23,545 nucleotides of DNA. It comes from Bacilli bacterium. Its GTDB lineage: Bacteria > Bacillota_I > Bacilli_A > ML615J-28 > CAG-698. The notes beneath the pieces are model-generated. The model did no database searches, had not been told where the DNA came from, and saw only the letters and a program-made list of their open reading frames with translations. The DNA lies in assembly GCA_028693885.1 (NCBI GenBank), contig JAQUUM010000002.1, forward strand, positions 1 to 23,545, in the 5' to 3' direction. The position numbers were made by a program, and so were the translations under genes. This document shows, piece after piece, positions 6,447 to 18,915 of the stretch (the first letter of the stretch is position 1; every line of letters begins with the position of its first letter).

Positions 6447-8474
6447 ATGGAAAATATTTTATTGTCTTGTATAAATTATATAAACCCAAAAATCGTTGCT
6501 CAATTAAAAAAAGCCAATATTGAGACTGTAGCGGATTTATTGTTTAATTATCCTACTAAGTTTGAAGATTATACAATAACTCCTATGGATGAAGTTGTGG
6601 CTGAAAAAAGTTTAACTATAGAAGCAATTGCACAATCAAAAGCTACTGTTGCAAATGTGAAAACAAAATTATCTGTAATGAATTTTTTTGTTGAAGCAGA
6701 TGGACATAGAATTAGAGTAACAATTTTTAATAGACATTTTTTGAAATCAAGAATTAATTATGGAGTTTACGTAAGGCTAACGGGAAAATTTAATGAAAAA
6801 TTAAATAATTTCACGGCAGCTGAAATTCATTTCGATGAGTTCAGCAACCAAATTAATCCGATTTTCAACATAAAAAATGTTGCTGACAATAAAATTTTAG
6901 AAATTAAAGAAAAATTATATCGAGAATATAAGGATTTAATAATTGATGATTTACCTCAAGATATAAAAGATAAATACAAACTTATTGATTTAAAGAAAGC
7001 TATAAAATATATTAACATACCTGAAGATATTGATGAAGTAAATAAAGCAATCCGTAGAATAAAATTTGAAGAGTTATTTAAATATCAGTTGATGATAAAA
7101 TATATGCTTTATAAAAGAAAAAATTTTCCTGAAGGAGTTTTAATAAATTATAATCAACAATTAGTCAATGAATTTATCGGTAGATTACCTTATAAACTAA
7201 CAATTGATCAAGAAAAAGTGTTAGAAGAAATCTTAAATGACATTAAATCTCCTTATAAAATGAATAGATTACTTCAAGGCGAGGTTGGTAGTGGTAAAAC
7301 TGTAGTAGCAGCAATTGCTTTATATGCGGTTGTTACAAGCAGATATCAAGGCGCTATTATGGTTCCAACTGAGGTTTTAGCAAATCAACATTATCAAACT
7401 TTTAAAGAGTTGTTTTTGGGAACAGATATAAAGATAGTTTTACTAACATCTTCTGTTTTACAAAAAGATAAAAAAGAGATAGTTGATTCTTTGAAAAATG
7501 GTGAAGTTAATATTATTATTGGTACTCACTCGCTATTTCAAAAGGACATTGAGTTTAAAAAATTAGGATTGGTTATTACTGATGAAGAGCATAGATTTGG
7601 TGTTCGCCAAAGAGTATCAATTGTTGGTAAAGGGTATTTAATTGATCATTTAAAGATGAGTGCGACTCCAATCCCAAGAACTTTAGCAATTAGTATTCTT
7701 GGCGAGTCAGACATTTCTGTTATCAAAGTTTTGCCTGGATATAAAAAAGATGTAATTACAAGAGTTGTAAAAGGTTCAGACTCAAAGCAAGTCATTGATC
7801 ATATGAAGGAAGAACTTGCTAGAGGAAGACAAATATATGTTATTACTCCGATGATAGAAGATTCAGACCTAATAGATTTAAACAATGCTAATCAGGTATT
7901 TGAAAAAACAAAATTGTACTTTAAAGATATATGTGAAGTAGGTCTAATTCATAGTAAATTGAAAACTGAAGAAAAAGAGAGTGTAATGAGAGCTTTTTCT
8001 AATAATGAAATTCAAATTTTAGTTTCAACGAGTGTTATTGAAGTAGGTGTTAATATTATTAATGCTACAACTATCGTAATATTAGATGCTGACAGATTTG
8101 GAATTGCTCAACTTCATCAAATGCGTGGTAGAGTTAGAAGAAGCGATTATCAAGCTTATTGTTTCTTAGTTAGTGATTCAACTGCTGAAACAGCTGTTAA
8201 GCGTTTAAAGTTAGTTGAAGAAAATAGTGATGGGTTTGTATTGGCTGAAGAAGATTTAATCATTCGAGGACCTGGCGACTTTTTTGGTGAAAAACAGTCA
8301 GGGATAGTAACATTTAAAATGGCTGATTTAGTTGTTGATAAAGATATATTAGAGATTGTTAATTTAGAAGCAGAATTAGTAATAAAAGAAAATAGGCTGA
8401 ATAAAAACGAATATTCTAAAATGCTAAAAATAGTTGATGAAAATTATAATAAAAATAAAGAAATGTTAAATTAG
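6447..8474 (+). CDS. recG: ATP-dependent DNA helicase RecG
   Basis: RecG remodels stalled replication forks and branched DNA. The 675-residue length is normal. Domain order is an N-terminal wedge/OB region (about 1-150), the helicase core, and a C-terminal TRG region. The motifs are Walker A GEVGSGKT (278-285), Walker B DEEH (379-382), motif III SATP (405-408), motif V near TSVIEVGVN (528-536), motif VI QMRGRVRRS (558-566) and RGPGDFFGEKQSG (607-619). Motif VI normally reads QLRGRVGRG, so a conserved Gly has become Arg at 564, while the neighbouring R562 and R565 remain. The start has AAGGAG upstream at about 6436. recG next to fakA and plsX is the standard Firmicutes order, without sdaAB-sdaAA and fapR. 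Confidence 0.96.
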   Translation: MENILLSCINYINPKIVAQLKKANIETVADLLFNYPTKFEDYTITPMDEVVAEKSLTIEAIAQSKATVANVKTKLSVMNFFVEADGHRIRVTIFNRHFLKSRINYGVYVRLTGKFNEKLNNFTAAEIHFDEFSNQINPIFNIKNVADNKILEIKEKLYREYKDLIIDDLPQDIKDKYKLIDLKKAIKYINIPEDIDEVNKAIRRIKFEELFKYQLMIKYMLYKRKNFPEGVLINYNQQLVNEFIGRLPYKLTIDQEKVLEEILNDIKSPYKMNRLLQGEVGSGKTVVAAIALYAVVTSRYQGAIMVPTEVLANQHYQTFKELFLGTDIKIVLLTSSVLQKDKKEIVDSLKNGEVNIIIGTHSLFQKDIEFKKLGLVITDEEHRFGVRQRVSIVGKGYLIDHLKMSATPIPRTLAISILGESDISVIKVLPGYKKDVITRVVKGSDSKQVIDHMKEELARGRQIYVITPMIEDSDLIDLNNANQVFEKTKLYFKDICEVGLIHSKLKTEEKESVMRAFSNNEIQILVSTSVIEVGVNIINATTIVILDADRFGIAQLHQMRGRVRRSDYQAYCFLVSDSTAETAVKRLKLVEENSDGFVLAEEDLIIRGPGDFFGEKQSGIVTFKMADLVVDKDILEIVNLEAELVIKENRLNKNEYSKMLKIVDENYNKNKEMLN

Positions 8475-10187: not shown

Positions 10188-10811
10188 ATGAATCATTATA
10201 AAGAGATGTTAGAAAAAGAAATAATTGGGTTTGAGCGTTTATTATTAGAAAAATATCATTTACTAGAAATAACTGAAGTAGATGTTGTTATTTTAATCAA
10301 GTTAAATGACTATCTTAAAAAAGGTAAAAATATTTTAGCTGTAAGCGATATAATTAGCACTATGAGCATAAATGAAGGAGATTTTTCAAGTAGAGTTACT
10401 TTGTTAGTGGCTAAAGGCTTTATTTCTTTAAAGTTAGATTCGAAAAATAATGAAACTTTTTCTCTTGAAGGAGTATACTCAAGACTTTCTTTTATACTTG
10501 AAAATGGAAAAGATGATTTTGAAAAGCAACATTCTGATTCAGAAATGTATACAATTATAAATACAATTGAAAAAGAGTCAAAAGCAATTCTATCTCCGAT
10601 TGAACTAGAAATTGTTTCAAAATGGTTTTTCGAATATAAGTATTCAAGGGATTTAATCGAAAAGATGGTTTTAAAGGCCTTGAAAGACAAGAGAGTTAAT
10701 GTTAGATATATTGACAAATTATTAGCAAAAAATGAAAATAAATTAGAAAAAAATGATAGTTCTAATACTACGAATATACAAGAGCTATTTAATAAAGTAT
10801 ATGATAAATAA
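10188..10811 (+). CDS. dnaD: Replication initiation/primosome protein DnaD
   Basis: DnaD is a Firmicutes primosome component that remodels DNA and helps DnaB/DnaI load the replicative helicase, with PriA in the restart pathway. The 207-residue protein has an N-terminal winged-helix region (about 1-100), a variable linker, and a C-terminal DnaD domain (about 117-183). The C-terminal domain shows the pattern ILSPIELEIVSKW followed by NVRYIDKLL, like LSPMEIEIISKW...FRYID.IL in the family. A short polar tail follows. AGAGGA precedes the ATG. The dnaD-nth pair is conserved in Bacillus. The nth start lies inside the end of dnaD. Finding a DnaD next to a degenerate PriA in the same window is of functional interest. 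Confidence 0.88.
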   Translation: MNHYKEMLEKEIIGFERLLLEKYHLLEITEVDVVILIKLNDYLKKGKNILAVSDIISTMSINEGDFSSRVTLLVAKGFISLKLDSKNNETFSLEGVYSRLSFILENGKDDFEKQHSDSEMYTIINTIEKESKAILSPIELEIVSKWFFEYKYSRDLIEKMVLKALKDKRVNVRYIDKLLAKNENKLEKNDSSNTTNIQELFNKVYDK

Positions 10812-13141: not shown

Positions 13142-13765
13142 ATGAAATTAAATGAGCGAGGAATTCTAGTAGTATTATCAGGACCATCTGGTGTTGGTAA
13201 GGGTACTGTTAGATCAGCACTTTTTAAAATAGAAAATCACAACTTAGTTTATTCAGTCTCAGTTACAACTAGAAAACCAAGAGGCCAGGAAAAAGAAGGA
13301 ATAGATTATTATTTTGTTAGTGAGGATGAATTTATTAAAAAGGTAGATAAAGGAGAATTCCTTGAATATACTAAGTTTGTAGGAAATTATTATGGTACCT
13401 TAAAAGAATCAATCGATAGTAAATTGTCTGAAGGAAGCGAAGTTATTTTAGAAATTGAAGTTGATGGAGCTTTACAAGTTAAAGAGAAAATGCCAGGAGC
13501 TGTTTTTGTTTTTATTGCACCTCCTTCACTTAAAGATTTAGAAAAAAGATTAATTGAACGAGGAACTGAAAGTAGTTATGAATTGCAAGCTAGATTAGAA
13601 AAAGCAAAAAACGAATTAAAACTTGCATATTTATATGATTACATTGTAATTAATGATACTGTAGAAAATGCAGCTGATAAAATTTTAGCAATCATACGTG
13701 CTGAACATGCGAAGACTGAAAGAACAATTAATACATATTATAAAATGTTGGAGGTGAAACAATGA
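13142..13765 (+). CDS. gmk: Guanylate kinase
   Basis: Gmk phosphorylates GMP (and dGMP) to GDP with ATP. The 207-residue protein carries the P-loop GPSGVGKGT (14-22) and the GMP-binding block SVTTRKPRGQEKEGIDYYFV. Other family landmarks are FLEYTKFVGNYYGT, VILEIEVDGALQVK and RLIERGTES in the lid. The N-terminus MKLNERGILVVLSG matches the family, so the ATG is right even though no good Shine-Dalgarno sequence lies just before it. The nearest, AGAAAGG (13105-13111), is about 30 bases upstream. The stop overlaps the rpoZ start as ATGA. gmk-rpoZ is a conserved pair. Confidence 0.97.
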   Translation: MKLNERGILVVLSGPSGVGKGTVRSALFKIENHNLVYSVSVTTRKPRGQEKEGIDYYFVSEDEFIKKVDKGEFLEYTKFVGNYYGTLKESIDSKLSEGSEVILEIEVDGALQVKEKMPGAVFVFIAPPSLKDLEKRLIERGTESSYELQARLEKAKNELKLAYLYDYIVINDTVENAADKILAIIRAEHAKTERTINTYYKMLEVKQ

Positions 13766-14025
13766 AAAAAGACGGAATTAGATATCCATCAATTGACCAA
13801 TTAGTAGAAAAAGTAGGTTCTAAATATATACTAGTTATTGGGGCGGCTAAAAGATCAAAAGAGTTAGCATTAATTAATCCTGAGACTAATGAGCCTACAA
13901 TGCGTTTAATAACTAAACCACATAATGTAAAAAATTTAGGTATAGCTTTAGAAGAAATCTATGAAGGCAAAATAGTAATAAAAAAACTAAATGTTAAAGG
14001 CGAAGAAGAATTATTGATTAAATAA
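13762..14025 (+). CDS. rpoZ: RNA polymerase omega subunit
   Basis: The omega subunit stabilises the beta' subunit during RNA polymerase assembly. The 87-residue protein begins MKKDGIRYPSIDQLVEKVGSKY, followed by VIGAAKRSKEL, the conserved helix that contacts beta'. A C-terminal stretch with ALEEIYEGKIVI is also typical. GGAGGTGAAAC directly upstream is a strong ribosome binding site, and the ATG overlaps the gmk stop by four bases. coaBC, which follows rpoZ in Bacillus subtilis, is missing; a terminator and then priA follow. Confidence 0.93.
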   Translation: MKKDGIRYPSIDQLVEKVGSKYILVIGAAKRSKELALINPETNEPTMRLITKPHNVKNLGIALEEIYEGKIVIKKLNVKGEEELLIK

Positions 14026-14119: not shown

Positions 14120-16408
14120 ATGTATGCAAAAGTAATAGTAGATATACCAACCTCAATAATAAATGAAGAATTTGACTATATTATTCCAAATCAATTTGAA
14201 AAAATTTTAGAAATAGGCAGTAGAGTTTTAGTAGTTTTTGGTTTTAAAGAAACTATGGGGTTTGTTGTAGGAATAAGTGATACAACTGAATATCAAGGAG
14301 ATCTAAAAGAGATTGTTGATGTTTTAGATTTAGATGCTTCATTGACTATCGAACAAGTTGATCTAGCAAAAAAAATGAGTTTTGATCTTAATGTTAGTAG
14401 ATCTATTTGTTTAAATATGATGTTACCTGCTTTTTTAAAAGGGAAATACAAAAGATATATCAGGGTAATTAATACTAATCAGATTGATCAAAAACTTATT
14501 GAGGCCTTCAATAATAAATCAAAAATTTTACTTACAAAGGATTTACTTAAAGAATTTCCAGATATTAAAGAAGAGGTAAAAAAAGGAAATATAAGTTTTG
14601 AATATGAAGTTAATCAATACAAAGGTAAACAAAAACAAAAATATTATAATTATTCAAATACTAATTCTTTAGTACAACTAAGTACTAAAAAAACAGAGTG
14701 CTTGAATTACCTTAAGTTACATAAAGATGCATTGTTAGAAGAAATATGTGATTATGCTAATTGCAGTGCTGATTTAGTATTGAAACTTGAAAAAGAAGGT
14801 TATATTACAAGTTTTGTTAGAGATGAGGAAACTACTGAAAAGTCAATAATAGAAATTAGTTATGATTTCACACAAAATCAGTTAAAAAATAAGTGGTTAA
14901 AAAATGAAAAAAAACCAGCCTTATTGTTTTCGAATGATAATGAATATCGCCTTGATTTTTGTTTAGATGTTTGTCAAGAAAAAGCAAAAAAAGAAAAAAA
15001 GACAATGTTTATTGTTCCAACAATACTAGCATGTGAAGAATTAGAGATATTTTTGAAAGCTAGATTAAAGGGGTATAAAATTGTGTCTTTCAATAGCTCG
15101 GTATCTAAAAAAGAATTTTATGATAATTATATAAATTTGAAGAATGATTTAGTTGACATTGTTATAACTACGAGAGTAGGAATTTTTTTCCCAATTAATA
15201 AATTGGGTTTAATAATTATGATCAATGAAGAAGAAGGGAATTATATAAATGAATATGCGCCTAATTTTGATACTAAAGATATAATTGAATTTAGGGCTAA
15301 TTATAATAATGCTAAAATTTTATATGTTTCACCAACTCCGCTTATTGAAACGTACTACAAAGCAATAATGGGAAAATATACTTTACTAGAATATCAAAAA
15401 GATTTAGAGATCGATTATAAGATTATTAATATGAAAGATGAAATTCTTTCAAATAATAAGATAATTTCAAGACAACTGTTAGAAAAACTAAAAGAATGTT
15501 TATTATTAAAAAAACAAGCACTTTTAATTTTAAATAATAAGGGTTATAGTTCTCTTCTTACTTGTAGAAGTTGTGGGAAAGTATTAAGATGTCCAAAATG
15601 TGATATTCCACTTGTTTTATATAAAGAGAAAGGTTATGCTCAGTGTAGTTATTGTAATCATAAAGAAGCAAATTATGAAAAATGCCGTCATTGCGGTTCG
15701 GAAACTATTAGCAAACTAGGATTTGGATTAGAACAGGTAAGAGAAAAAATAATTGAACAATTTCCACAAGCTAAAATTTTGCAAATCGATAGCGATAATC
15801 TTAAAGCTTTTGATGACATAAAGCAAGCTCTCTTAGCAATTGAAGAGGGAACTGTTGATTTTATTATAGGAACTAATGTCATAACAAAAATGTTGAAAAA
15901 TAATAATATTCATGTTGTAGGCGTATTAAATGCTGATAATTTTTTAAACATGAATGATTATAATAGTTCTTTTTTAGTATATAGTTTAATTGCTAATTGT
16001 GCTATAAGGTATAGTGGTTCTTTATATGTACAAACTAATTATGAAGATAATGCTATTATAAAAAATGGCTGCCTTGCTAACTATAATAATTTCTTTAATG
16101 AAGAAATTAAAATAAGGAGAATGTTATCATATCCTCCATTTTTAGAGTTAAATAGAGTTTATATTAGAAGCGAGTACAAAAAAATGTATATATTTGCCAA
16201 TAGTTTTAAAAAACATTTTTTAGAGTTAGTTGAGGGAGAAAAAGATTGTCTTGGACCTGTTTATGTTAATAAATATAAAAGTGTACAGTTGTTATTAAAG
16301 CACAATGATCCTAAGGGAATAAATATGTTATTTAAAGAGATGTATAAAAAAAGTCTTGAAAGAAAAGTAGAACTTGTTTTCGAAAAAAATCCAAAGATGT
16401 TTAAGTAG
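14120..16408 (+). CDS. priA: Primosomal protein N' PriA, probably an ATPase-dead pseudohelicase
   Basis: PriA recognises abandoned replication forks and starts helicase reloading. The 762-residue protein keeps the family plan: an N-terminal 3' DNA-binding domain (YAKVIVDIP, EFDYIIPNQF, GFVVGI; about 1-100), a winged helix, a helicase-like core with an inserted zinc region, and a C-terminal domain. All eight zinc cysteines are present (C482, C485, C491, C494, C509, C512, C522, C525). The ATPase motifs are not. At the Walker A site (about 268-282), where GVTGSGKTE is expected, the sequence reads LFSNDNEYRL. The DEEH box is NEEE (369-372). GTQMIAKG is GTNVITKM (584-591), and QVAGRAGR is NCAIRYSG (626-633). 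The frame is uninterrupted, so this is a kept protein and not a decaying gene. AGGGAG sits eight bases before the ATG. fmt follows directly; def is absent between them. Confidence 0.9.
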   Translation: MYAKVIVDIPTSIINEEFDYIIPNQFEKILEIGSRVLVVFGFKETMGFVVGISDTTEYQGDLKEIVDVLDLDASLTIEQVDLAKKMSFDLNVSRSICLNMMLPAFLKGKYKRYIRVINTNQIDQKLIEAFNNKSKILLTKDLLKEFPDIKEEVKKGNISFEYEVNQYKGKQKQKYYNYSNTNSLVQLSTKKTECLNYLKLHKDALLEEICDYANCSADLVLKLEKEGYITSFVRDEETTEKSIIEISYDFTQNQLKNKWLKNEKKPALLFSNDNEYRLDFCLDVCQEKAKKEKKTMFIVPTILACEELEIFLKARLKGYKIVSFNSSVSKKEFYDNYINLKNDLVDIVITTRVGIFFPINKLGLIIMINEEEGNYINEYAPNFDTKDIIEFRANYNNAKILYVSPTPLIETYYKAIMGKYTLLEYQKDLEIDYKIINMKDEILSNNKIISRQLLEKLKECLLLKKQALLILNNKGYSSLLTCRSCGKVLRCPKCDIPLVLYKEKGYAQCSYCNHKEANYEKCRHCGSETISKLGFGLEQVREKIIEQFPQAKILQIDSDNLKAFDDIKQALLAIEEGTVDFIIGTNVITKMLKNNNIHVVGVLNADNFLNMNDYNSSFLVYSLIANCAIRYSGSLYVQTNYEDNAIIKNGCLANYNNFFNEEIKIRRMLSYPPFLELNRVYIRSEYKKMYIFANSFKKHFLELVEGEKDCLGPVYVNKYKSVQLLLKHNDPKGINMLFKEMYKKSLERKVELVFEKNPKMFK

Positions 16409-16416
16409 GTGATATT

Positions 16417-17349
16417 TTGAAAGTTATTTTTATGGGGACTCCTGAATTTGCTGTTAAAATTGTAGAAAAAATTTCTTTGAATCATGAGGTTGTCTTGGTG
16501 GTTACTCAGCCTGATAAATTAGCTGGCAGAAAGAATGAATTGATGGCTTCTGCAGTTAAAAAATGGGCTATAGATAAGAGAATACCTATATATCAACCTA
16601 CTAATATTAAAAAAGAATTTAATACTATATTGAATAATAAGTGTGATATAATTGTTACAGCAGCTTACGGACAAATTGTTCCAGACATTGTACTGAATCA
16701 CCCTAAATATAAAGCAATAAATGTGCATGCTTCTTTATTGCCTAAATATCGAGGAGGAGCTCCGATTCAAAAAGCTTTGCTTAATGGTGATGAAGTAACA
16801 GGAATAAGTATAATCTATATGACAAGCAAGATGGATGCTGGTGATATTATTATGCAAAAGTCGATTAAAATTGATGAAAATGATTATCAAAACAATTTAT
16901 TTGATAAGTTGGGTGATTTGGGGTCTATAATGATAAGCGAATGTTTAGAAAAAATTGAGAAAAATCTTGTTGAAACAGTTCCTCAAAACGAAGAGTTTGT
17001 ATCGTATGCTCCAAATATAAAAAAAGAAGATGAAAAAATTCTTTTTACAAAAAATGCATTTCAAATAAGAAATCAAGTTAGAGCACTTAATCCTAATCCT
17101 GGTTGCTATTTTGAGTTGGATGATAAAAAAATTAAAGTCTTTAAAGTTAATAGTTTATTAATAGAAAGCAAATATGAAAGCGGCCAAATTATAGATATTA
17201 AAAAAGATTCATTCTTTATAGCTTGCGCAGAACAAAGTGCTGTTGAAATATTAGAATTACAACTTGAGGGAAAAAAGAAAATGTCTGTTAGAGATTTTTT
17301 AAACGGAACGGGTAGAAATATTATTTTAAAAGATAAAAAAATTCAATAG
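16417..17349 (+). CDS. fmt: Methionyl-tRNA formyltransferase
   Basis: Fmt formylates initiator Met-tRNA using 10-formyl-tetrahydrofolate. The 310-residue protein starts MKVIFMGTPEFAV and contains the catalytic N102 and H104 in INVHASLLPKYRGGAPI and D140 in MDAGDI (E. coli N106, H108, D144). The C-terminal domain (about 205-310) is the tRNA-binding OB fold. The start is TTG at 16417. AGGTGAT (16407-16413) provides the ribosome binding site and the N-terminus begins exactly where the family does. priA lies eight bases upstream and pgpA follows after 13 bases. A peptide deformylase gene, usually next to fmt, is not in the window. Confidence 0.96.
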   Translation: MKVIFMGTPEFAVKIVEKISLNHEVVLVVTQPDKLAGRKNELMASAVKKWAIDKRIPIYQPTNIKKEFNTILNNKCDIIVTAAYGQIVPDIVLNHPKYKAINVHASLLPKYRGGAPIQKALLNGDEVTGISIIYMTSKMDAGDIIMQKSIKIDENDYQNNLFDKLGDLGSIMISECLEKIEKNLVETVPQNEEFVSYAPNIKKEDEKILFTKNAFQIRNQVRALNPNPGCYFELDDKKIKVFKVNSLLIESKYESGQIIDIKKDSFFIACAEQSAVEILELQLEGKKKMSVRDFLNGTGRNIILKDKKIQ

Positions 17350-17362
17350 AGGAGATTTGAAA

Positions 17363-17896
17363 ATGAAAAAAATTTATTTTTCAAGAGATGAAATGTACAG
17401 TTTGAATGTTGAAAGGTTGACAGAAAGAGGAGTAAAAATTGAAGACATTGCTATGATTGCCTATAAGCAACAAATCAAATATAATCCTAAAACAACTTTT
17501 GAATTATGTTTAGCTAGTGTTAAAAAAACTTTGTCGTATAGAGATATATTCCACATCGTTCAATTAAGTGTTGAAATTGATAGATTGACTGAGCAAGGAG
17601 GAATTTTTAGAGAGCCGATTCAGAGTATAATGAAAGATGATTTAGGCATGTTTGGAATAGATGAAATTTTAGGATTGAGTATAGCAGCTAACTATGGAGT
17701 TATTGGCCAAACAAATTTTGGAGATATTGATGTAAATAAACCTGGTATTGTTAAAGAGTTAAATGACCATGGTAAAAGTGAAAGTGAACAATGTCATACA
17801 TTTTTAGACGATGTAGTAGGAGCTATTGCTGCGGCTGCTTCAACAAGAGTTGCGCAAATCATAAGTGAAGAAGAAGCAACAAAGAAGGCTGAGTAA
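17363..17896 (+). CDS. pgpA: Phosphatidylglycerophosphatase A family protein (PgpA/YutG)
   Basis: PgpA-family enzymes remove phosphate from phosphatidylglycerol phosphate to give phosphatidylglycerol; the Bacillus member is YutG. The 177-residue protein shows the family blocks RDIFHIVQLSVEIDRL, DDLGMFGIDEILGLSIA, YGVIGQTNFGDID, KPGIV and, near the C-terminus, CHTFLDDVVGAIAAAA with conserved acidic residues. No clear hydrophobic membrane spans are seen apart from short amphipathic stretches, as in YutG. ATG 17363 is preferred to a TTG two codons earlier because GAGGAG (17349-17354) is at good spacing. The stop overlaps the next start by one base (TAATG), so it is coupled to the DUF2804 gene. 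The family call is firm; the reaction is inferred from the family. Confidence 0.83.
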   Translation: MKKIYFSRDEMYSLNVERLTERGVKIEDIAMIAYKQQIKYNPKTTFELCLASVKKTLSYRDIFHIVQLSVEIDRLTEQGGIFREPIQSIMKDDLGMFGIDEILGLSIAANYGVIGQTNFGDIDVNKPGIVKELNDHGKSESEQCHTFLDDVVGAIAAAASTRVAQIISEEEATKKAE

Positions 17897-18915
17897 TGGA
17901 CAATAAATTAACTGTAGGTAATTTATTAGACCAGCATGGGAAGTTAGTAGAAAAAGGTTATTCTAATAAATTAGTCAAAACATTTGAAAGAGAGCGAATC
18001 AAAGCTAGTAAAAGTAAAATTAAAGAGACAAATTTTTATTTTTTTGGTAATCAAGATTACGGGTTCTCTATTGAAATAAGTAATAATTTCTTTTATAAAT
18101 TAGCAGAAATTGGTTTTTATGATATTAAAAAGAATTTTAGGTTTTCTAAATCATACTATAAGTTTTTCGCGAGTAAAGATTTTTTTATTTCAGAAAGCGA
18201 TTCATCAGGTGAAAACTATTTTAAAAATAAAAAAATATTAGTAAGTATAAAAAATTTTGATAACTATAAAAAGATTTATGTTTCAGCAGAAAAATATGAT
18301 GGTAAAAATGACTTTGTATGTGATATTAAAGTTCTAAATGAAAATTCACAGGCAATTGTAGTTGCTTGCCCTTTTGAAGAAAAAAATCAATTTTGCTATT
18401 TCCAAAAAAGTTTTAACCATAAAAATGAAGGATTTTTAAGGATTGAAAACCAAATTTATGATGTACAGATTTTAAATACTTCTTTTAAGTGGATTAGATC
18501 AGTAATGCCTTATATGAGCAATTGCTTTTGGGCTAGTATAAGTGGAAAAATAGAGAAAGATTTATTTACAATTACATTAGGGGAAGGGATTTCTGATACA
18601 TCGTCTGCTAGTGAAAATATAATTTTCATAAATGAAAAAAGTTATAAAGTATGCAATGTTATTTTTAAAATTAAACTTGATGAAAGTGAAAATGAGATGT
18701 TATTAGATGAGTGGAAGATTTTATCTGATGATGGGATAGTCAATATTACTTTTAATCCGATTTTACTTACACATGTAAAAAATAATTATATTATAACAAG
18801 TAGAAAAAATTTAAAATTATTTGGTAAGTTTAGTGGCTTTATTAAATTAAATGATATAGGTTATCAAGTAAATGATTTTTTTGGTTTTATTGAGCGAAAT
18901 TCTTTAAGAGGATAA
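17896..18915 (+). CDS. DUF2804 family protein of unknown function
   Basis: The 339-residue protein resembles the DUF2804 family. The N-terminus carries GNLLDQHGKLVEKGYS, then a conserved Arg-rich stretch (FERERIKASKSKIKETNFYFF). The C-terminus ends with KLFGKFSGFIKLNDIGYQVNDFFGFIERN, like the family's GKFxGxxxLDDG...GFxE ending. There is no signal peptide or membrane span, and the rest is beta-rich with many Phe and Tyr. No catalytic residues can be named. It starts within the pgpA stop codon, and a role linked to membrane lipid metabolism is a possible but unproven inference from that. A galU promoter follows. I recognise the family from its ends only; the middle is poorly conserved. Confidence 0.65.
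   Translation: MDNKLTVGNLLDQHGKLVEKGYSNKLVKTFERERIKASKSKIKETNFYFFGNQDYGFSIEISNNFFYKLAEIGFYDIKKNFRFSKSYYKFFASKDFFISESDSSGENYFKNKKILVSIKNFDNYKKIYVSAEKYDGKNDFVCDIKVLNENSQAIVVACPFEEKNQFCYFQKSFNHKNEGFLRIENQIYDVQILNTSFKWIRSVMPYMSNCFWASISGKIEKDLFTITLGEGISDTSSASENIIFINEKSYKVCNVIFKIKLDESENEMLLDEWKILSDDGIVNITFNPILLTHVKNNYIITSRKNLKLFGKFSGFIKLNDIGYQVNDFFGFIERNSLRG

Follow-up and report, generated by a model that had tools for sequence, protein, structure and literature searches.

The PriA pseudohelicase is already known as a kind from Deinococcus radiodurans, whose PriA neither hydrolyses ATP nor unwinds DNA and binds single-stranded DNA (ssDNA), forks and DnaB (Lopper et al. 2015, PMC4504706). Decay of the PriA motifs has been reported across Deinococcus-Thermus (PMC4504706). 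In Escherichia coli, an ATPase-dead PriA (K230A) loads DnaB in vitro together with PriB, DnaT and DnaC (PMC10175261), and ATPase-dead priA alleles are tolerated, yet the motifs are well conserved (PMC4504706). We analysed a window of 23,545 nucleotides from a Bacilli bacterium (GTDB order ML615J-28, family CAG-698; GenBank assembly GCA_028693885.1, contig JAQUUM010000002.1, positions 1 to 23,545 of the forward strand). It carries a priA gene whose product has lost the motor motifs, a loss seen throughout the order. Very probably, this PriA has no ATPase or helicase activity and is kept as an ATP-independent restart platform that loads through DnaD, DnaB and DnaI. The literature searched, which covered few subscription papers, yielded no PriA pseudohelicase in Bacilli or Acholeplasma; by that measure it is new that the motor is erased more fully, that the loss is old and order-wide, that it stands beside a DnaD-type loader and that it recurs in Bacilli and wall-less relatives.

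A normal-length PriA without the motor motifs

The frame described in the original prediction proved correct in coordinates, length and reading frame (Table 1). This open reading frame (ORF) scores 295.7 bits against the PriA family model TIGR00595 (cut-off 230.35), its alignment beginning at model position 15; the 30 top-scoring PriA proteins from the relatives search align from position 1. Solved PriA structures match it (best 6dcr_A, E 4e-45), and its AlphaFold model shows the full PriA fold, with a predicted local distance difference test score (pLDDT) of 87. Pfam searches at E 0.01 recovered solely the 3′ DNA-binding domain (3′BD), whose retention had been predicted, and the PriA zinc ribbon (PF18319); DEAD and Helicase_C were not found at this threshold.

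None of the signatures of a catalytic superfamily 2 (SF2) helicase, Walker A GK[ST], DEEH and QxxGRxGR, is present in the window's PriA. The Gordoniibacillus PriA P0029 served as motif reference, the B. subtilis PriA motifs lying outside the alignment; at motif I, QGVTGSGKTEV in P0029 stands against FSNDNEYRLDF in the window. The strings that the original prediction had placed at motifs I, V and VI were all found (Table 1). For motif II, the predicted string NEEE does occupy residues 369-372 but lies one column off, since a gapless alignment anchored on Y375 makes I368-N-E-E371 the true counterpart of DEEH. The broader statement that every ATPase landmark is gone holds for the P-loop, DEEH and QVAGRAGR, but not for relics of motifs II to V: SPTP remains at motif III, NNKGY at motif IV, and GT with K590 at motif V. 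R630 also aligns with the first arginine of motif VI.

The source genome is a 1.34-Mb draft in 207 contigs, 86.5% complete. It contains a single PriA-level match; three other TIGR00595 matches reach at most 52.7 bits, one of which, inside the window, falls within RecG. A second intact priA, which the prediction had named as a possible objection, was thus not found in this 86.5%-complete draft. The recG of the window, which starts about 7.7 kb upstream of priA, keeps GEVGSGKT, DEEH and QMRGRVRR, which argues against a general artefact.

Distribution and history of the loss

The order was represented by 43 genomes, from two families and 22 genera. PriA matches were obtained in 39 of them (218-306 bits, starting at model position 8 or later), one of which, in G021, is a 389-amino-acid (aa) piece at a contig end. 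A fortieth genome, G006, yielded solely residues 1-219 and the last 48 residues of the profile, at contig ends, its motor region being unseen. Motifs were counted over 41 order rows, comprising 38 of the 39 ORFs and the database proteins P0003, P0005 and P0006; the G021 piece and P0004 (469 aa) were excluded. GK[ST] occurs within 25 columns of motif I in none of the 41 rows, the GKT glycine and the second motif VI arginine are missing from all 41, and no row has T or S after the GKT-column lysine, a pattern that goes beyond chance. An acidic remnant of motif II, one residue out of register, is frequent in the order, with D in the first-E column of 29/41 rows. GK[ST] is present in 43/43 reference PriA rows, which were chosen as motor-bearing and therefore offer no independent control: these rows, mostly from other families of the class, are a selection of 30 best-scoring loci (one of them the G015 contig copy considered below) and others picked as motor-bearing. 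GKT is also kept by L079, L087 and L090, three rows excluded from the reference because their motifs were altered or their branches long.

Among 395 genomes sampled from the class, 393 had some TIGR00595 match, many merely RecG- or Mfd-like. By our reading of the table, best E values between 1e-100 and 1e-60 were confined to this order and to genus g56 of family f10. Families f5 and f16, whose genomes we infer to be mycoplasmas, reached no PriA-level match, their best E values being 1e-5 to 1e-11. A search at phylum level returned genomes of this class alone and brought in no further clade. Two near-complete 2.3-Mb genomes of family f19 (G249, G350) lacked any TIGR00595 match, even RecG- or Mfd-like ones. 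PriA-like matches with many internal stops in about 2.3 kb (L093 and L107, contig C45 of G355) may represent a broken priA or frame errors.

With the motif columns removed, an 84-row tree, from which 12 rows were excluded (two fragments and ten thinned by eye), placed the PriA proteins of the order in one clade beside f10 and f15, with a support of 100 in the Shimodaira–Hasegawa-like approximate likelihood-ratio test (SH-aLRT). Acholeplasma and phytoplasma rows were counted separately from order and reference. Genus g56 corresponds to Acholeplasma through the database relatives P0085 (A. granularum) and P0095 (A. hippikon); in all seven of its genomes (L074, L081-L086) GK[ST], DEEH and GRxGR are lost, and three other aligned genera of f10 retain the helicase motifs. 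Acholeplasma has further lost four of the eight zinc cysteines (those at 491, 494, 509 and 512 in the numbering of the window's protein); the order has kept them all. P0133, a protein from a metagenome-assembled genome labelled Acholeplasma sp., retains all motifs, so the name Acholeplasma alone does not define the loss.

A 32-row tree requires three changes of motor state. The approximately unbiased (AU) test on these rows rejected a common origin of the loss in the order and in Acholeplasma (p-AU 2.99e-05); the rows were picked after the larger tree had been seen, and the group tested was not fixed in advance. The phytoplasma proteins P0139, P0152, P0181 and P0195 are without a P-loop and P0115 keeps it, which suggests a third independent loss. 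The trees thus point to a motor lost once in the ancestor of the order and separately in Acholeplasma and in some phytoplasmas. One f15 protein (L079, genome G062), in which GKT is kept, motif II reads DDAH and GRAGR is missing, may be an intermediate of motor loss.

Selection, proposed role and competing explanations

The ratio of non-synonymous to synonymous substitution rates (dN/dS), calculated by the Nei–Gojobori method (NG86), was 0.065-0.181 over the gene in seven close pairs within the order and 0.057-0.226 in residues 261-440, the dead first lobe, of the same pairs. These come from the eight closest pairs of the order, which are non-independent (G031, G039 and G040 recur), the eighth being saturated in dS. 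The Yang–Nielsen method (YN00) returned whole-gene values for three of the eight (0.020, 0.036 and 0.058), and NG86 is therefore quoted. Close relatives are accordingly far from the dN/dS near 1 that the original prediction had considered as a counter-indication.

All eight predicted zinc cysteines were found in the window's PriA, and they are invariant in 41/41 order rows (26/26 in a smaller set). The loop after motif II is presumably, by position, the aromatic-rich fork-wedge loop of the first helicase domain (HD1). Mean conservation was higher in the 41 order rows than in the 43 reference rows for the 3′BD (0.529 versus 0.449), for the winged helix and linker (0.398 versus 0.285, partly due to gaps in the reference) and for the C-terminal domain (CTD; 0.478 versus 0.399), whereas the motor lobes were less conserved (lobe 1, 0.462 versus 0.593), with the greatest drop at motifs VI and I. 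The order rows are less alike (median identity 0.36 and 0.37 within the families, 0.27 between them) than 30 reference rows (0.45), so the higher conservation in these domains does not stem from row similarity. Y715 (41/41), Y690 (Y or F, 41/41), K697 and N678 are conserved across the order rows but vary among the reference rows; residues within 113-168 also look gained, an impression inflated by gaps there in about 18 of the 43 reference rows.

In B. subtilis, PriA with DnaD, DnaB and DnaI forms the single known restart system (PMC12748557, PMC13220808). Genes for these partners persist in the order. PF07261, which covers DnaD and DnaB, was found in 43/43 genomes, in at least two copies in 39, and DnaI_N in 35 (32 over the cut-off). 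Besides the DnaD-type gene of the window, the source genome has a second PF07261 match, a 431-aa frame on contig C61, adjoined by its DnaI_N match.

PriA binds forks with its 3′BD, winged helix, HD1, cysteine-rich region (CRR) and CTD. One HD1 loop acts as a wedge in the fork, and the CRR pivots to form a pore for the ssDNA of the lagging strand (PMC10175261). Since the parts kept here are those for fork binding and loading and the parts lost are those for unwinding, we favour an ATP-independent platform; the lack of ATPase, the fork binding, the loading and the partners of the window's PriA are predicted from its sequence. The protein would recognise forked DNA through 3′BD, winged helix, post-motif-II loop, zinc domain and CTD, and would pass the fork to DnaD and then to DnaB and DnaI for loading of the replicative helicase. 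No unwinding would be required at forks whose lagging arm is single-stranded. Duplex lagging arms, which the PriA helicase is described as opening (PMC13377028), would be opened by another enzyme, with RecG, RecD2 or a nuclease as candidates, or would not be restarted. The central claim of the original prediction, that selection keeps a putatively non-catalytic PriA, is borne out across the order by intact frames, low dN/dS, cysteines, fold and a conserved locus.

Several observations weigh against the platform. No PriA was found in three genomes of the order (G008, G019 and G027; 82, 93 and 61% complete), and DnaI_N was not found in 8 of the 43. Genome G015 also has a motor-bearing PriA (L075 / L013, on the 3,466-bp contig C34); because this copy groups with family f11 and G015 is listed at 6% contamination, it is probably a bin contaminant. 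The dN/dS pairs are relatives that share genomes, and the window's own gene is in none of them. No compensating helicase was identified in searches for RecQ and RecD2, PcrA and others not being searched. RecQ exceeded its cut-off in one of the 43 genomes (G011, a 1,607-aa frame), and RecD2 in 37 and in most other sampled families; neither is clade-specific, and the suggestion that another helicase replaces the unwinding is weakened. The other suggestion, DnaD as the unwinding enzyme, is not supported, as DnaD is not known to act as a helicase. Finally, the E. coli PriA-PriC-DnaT pathway needs PriA helicase activity (PMC13220808), so a dead motor should carry a cost.

Among other explanations, the one that survives best is that the dead PriA no longer takes part in fork restart and has been recruited, with a new partner, to a different function, of which newly conserved CTD and linker residues would be the mark. 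The newly conserved Y715, Y690, K697 and N678 speak for it, as do the residues within 113-168, with the reservation on gaps made above. The fork-binding parts are nevertheless retained and the restart-pathway partner genes persist, and the CTD gains would also fit a tuned DnaD dock, as E. coli DnaT docks onto the second helicase domain (HD2) and the CTD (PMC13377028); we consider this repurposing unlikely. A cryptic ATPase with a non-standard nucleotide site is less likely still. The relics of motifs II, III, IV and V and a lysine in the GKT column of 16/41 rows are compatible with it, but no row has the GKT glycine, a T or S following the lysine, or the second arginine of motif VI, and ATPase activity is absent from D. 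radiodurans PriA, in which only the GKT lysine is changed, to arginine, and motif II matches poorly (PMC4504706).

Slightly less credible again is that priA is a pseudogene in decay and heading for loss, the mycoplasma-like families of the class having no PriA. The absence of PriA-level matches from f5 and f16 and of PriA from three genomes of the order would agree with it. However, 37 ORFs of the order that do not run off a contig, the window's included, measure 744-812 codons from stop to stop, the zinc cysteines are invariant despite a median identity of about 27% between the two families, and the loss is common to both families and hence old. Low dN/dS and conserved frames largely refute decay, unless the measured pairs are unrepresentative. 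The fragmented, incomplete draft and the second, motor-bearing copy in G015 could be cited for an error of assembly or for another, active PriA in the genome, but either has a negligible chance, and the sequencing artefact that the original prediction had considered is very unlikely. Motif I is erased alike in 38 genomes, counting that of the window, and in three database proteins; motor-less P0003 lies on a 639,747-bp contig, and the source genome has one PriA-level match.

The restart platform thus remains our preferred reading. A further, tentative extension, which we regard as doubtful, is that the motor was lost independently at least three times in Bacilli and wall-less relatives and that in this order the motor-less protein acquired a newly conserved surface (Y715, Y690, K697 and N678 in the CTD, perhaps residues 113-162). 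This surface would serve as a dock for DnaD or a different partner and take over from ATP-driven fork remodelling, which would make PriA a restart switch fully independent of ATP. An old, order-wide and recurrent loss alongside a DnaD-DnaB-DnaI loader constitutes a natural experiment, which suggests that the motor is dispensable and the platform is not. Motor-less PriA proteins also separate residues for fork recognition and loading from those of the motor. The label 'replication restart helicase PriA' on motor-less P0003 and P0085 would then be misleading.

Locus and comparison with known PriA systems

The gene fmt lies downstream of priA in 38/38 other loci of the order. Of 23 loci retrieved from the window's family, gmk is found upstream of priA in 19 and rpoZ in 20; in the second family, with 15 loci, tblastn detected neither gene in the vicinity of priA. 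Further downstream in the window, a DUF2804 protein is encoded at 17896-18915, between fmt and galU, beside a short protein (17357-17896) whose CobZ match is far below the cut-off.

Table 1. Features of the window around priA (positions in the window)
Feature	Position	Strand	Basis or remark
priA, predicted PriA pseudohelicase	14120..16408	+	762 codons plus stop; family model, solved-structure match, motif alignment
3′ DNA-binding domain, retained, residues 4-103	14129..14428	+	Pfam PF17764, E 3.3e-18
Motif I / Walker A place, residues 269-278, LFSNDNEYRL, erased	14924..14953	+	motif alignment
Motif II place, residues 368-372, INEEE; acidic relic, no DEEH	15221..15235	+	motif alignment
Loop after motif II with Y375 and P381	15242..15262	+	Y375 and P381 each in 41/41 rows
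Cysteine-rich region, zinc cysteines C482, C485, C491, C494, C509, C512, C522, C525	15563..15694	+	Pfam PF18319
Motif V place, residues 584-591, GTNVITKM; GT and K kept, remainder lost	15869..15892	+	motif alignment
Motif VI place, residues 626-633, NCAIRYSG; QVAGRAGR lost	15995..16018	+	motif alignment
C-terminal domain, residues 646-762	16055..16405	+	conserved more than in reference PriA; clade-specific N678, Y690, K697, Y715
recG, intact helicase motifs	6447..8474	+	internal control; candidate fork remodeller
DnaD-type protein, presumed PriA partner	10188..10811	+	PF07261 match 10560-10724 and size
gmk, guanylate kinase, upstream neighbour	13142..13765	+	
rpoZ, RNA polymerase omega, upstream neighbour	13762..14025	+	
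fmt, downstream neighbour	16417..17349	+	

Acholeplasma PriA is also motor-less, but its loss is independent and four of its zinc cysteines are gone. Actinobacterial PriA, invoked in the original prediction, is said to have degenerate Walker motifs or to have lost the helicase motifs. The putative actinobacterial orthologue is described as very divergent and smaller (PMC1193525), whereas the PriA studied here has normal length. B. subtilis has the same loader genes and PriA domains as found here; its PriA has ssDNA-dependent ATPase activity (PMC13220808), unlike the predicted motor-less protein of the window.

The precedent of D. radiodurans, on which the original prediction had drawn for a PriA without helicase activity, is real (PMC4504706), and it is the closest parallel: in keeping with a Deinococcus-type pseudohelicase, the catalytic motifs are lost here and the DNA-binding domains are kept under selection. 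The D. radiodurans protein is thought to retain replisome reloading (PMC4504706), much like the platform role proposed here. The two differ in extent, with an arginine in place of the GKT lysine and a poorly matching motif II in D. radiodurans against loss of the whole P-loop and motif VI here. They differ also in their partners, since no clear homologue of priB or dnaT is described for D. radiodurans, whose PriA binds directly to DnaB, whereas genes for DnaD, DnaB and DnaI are present here.
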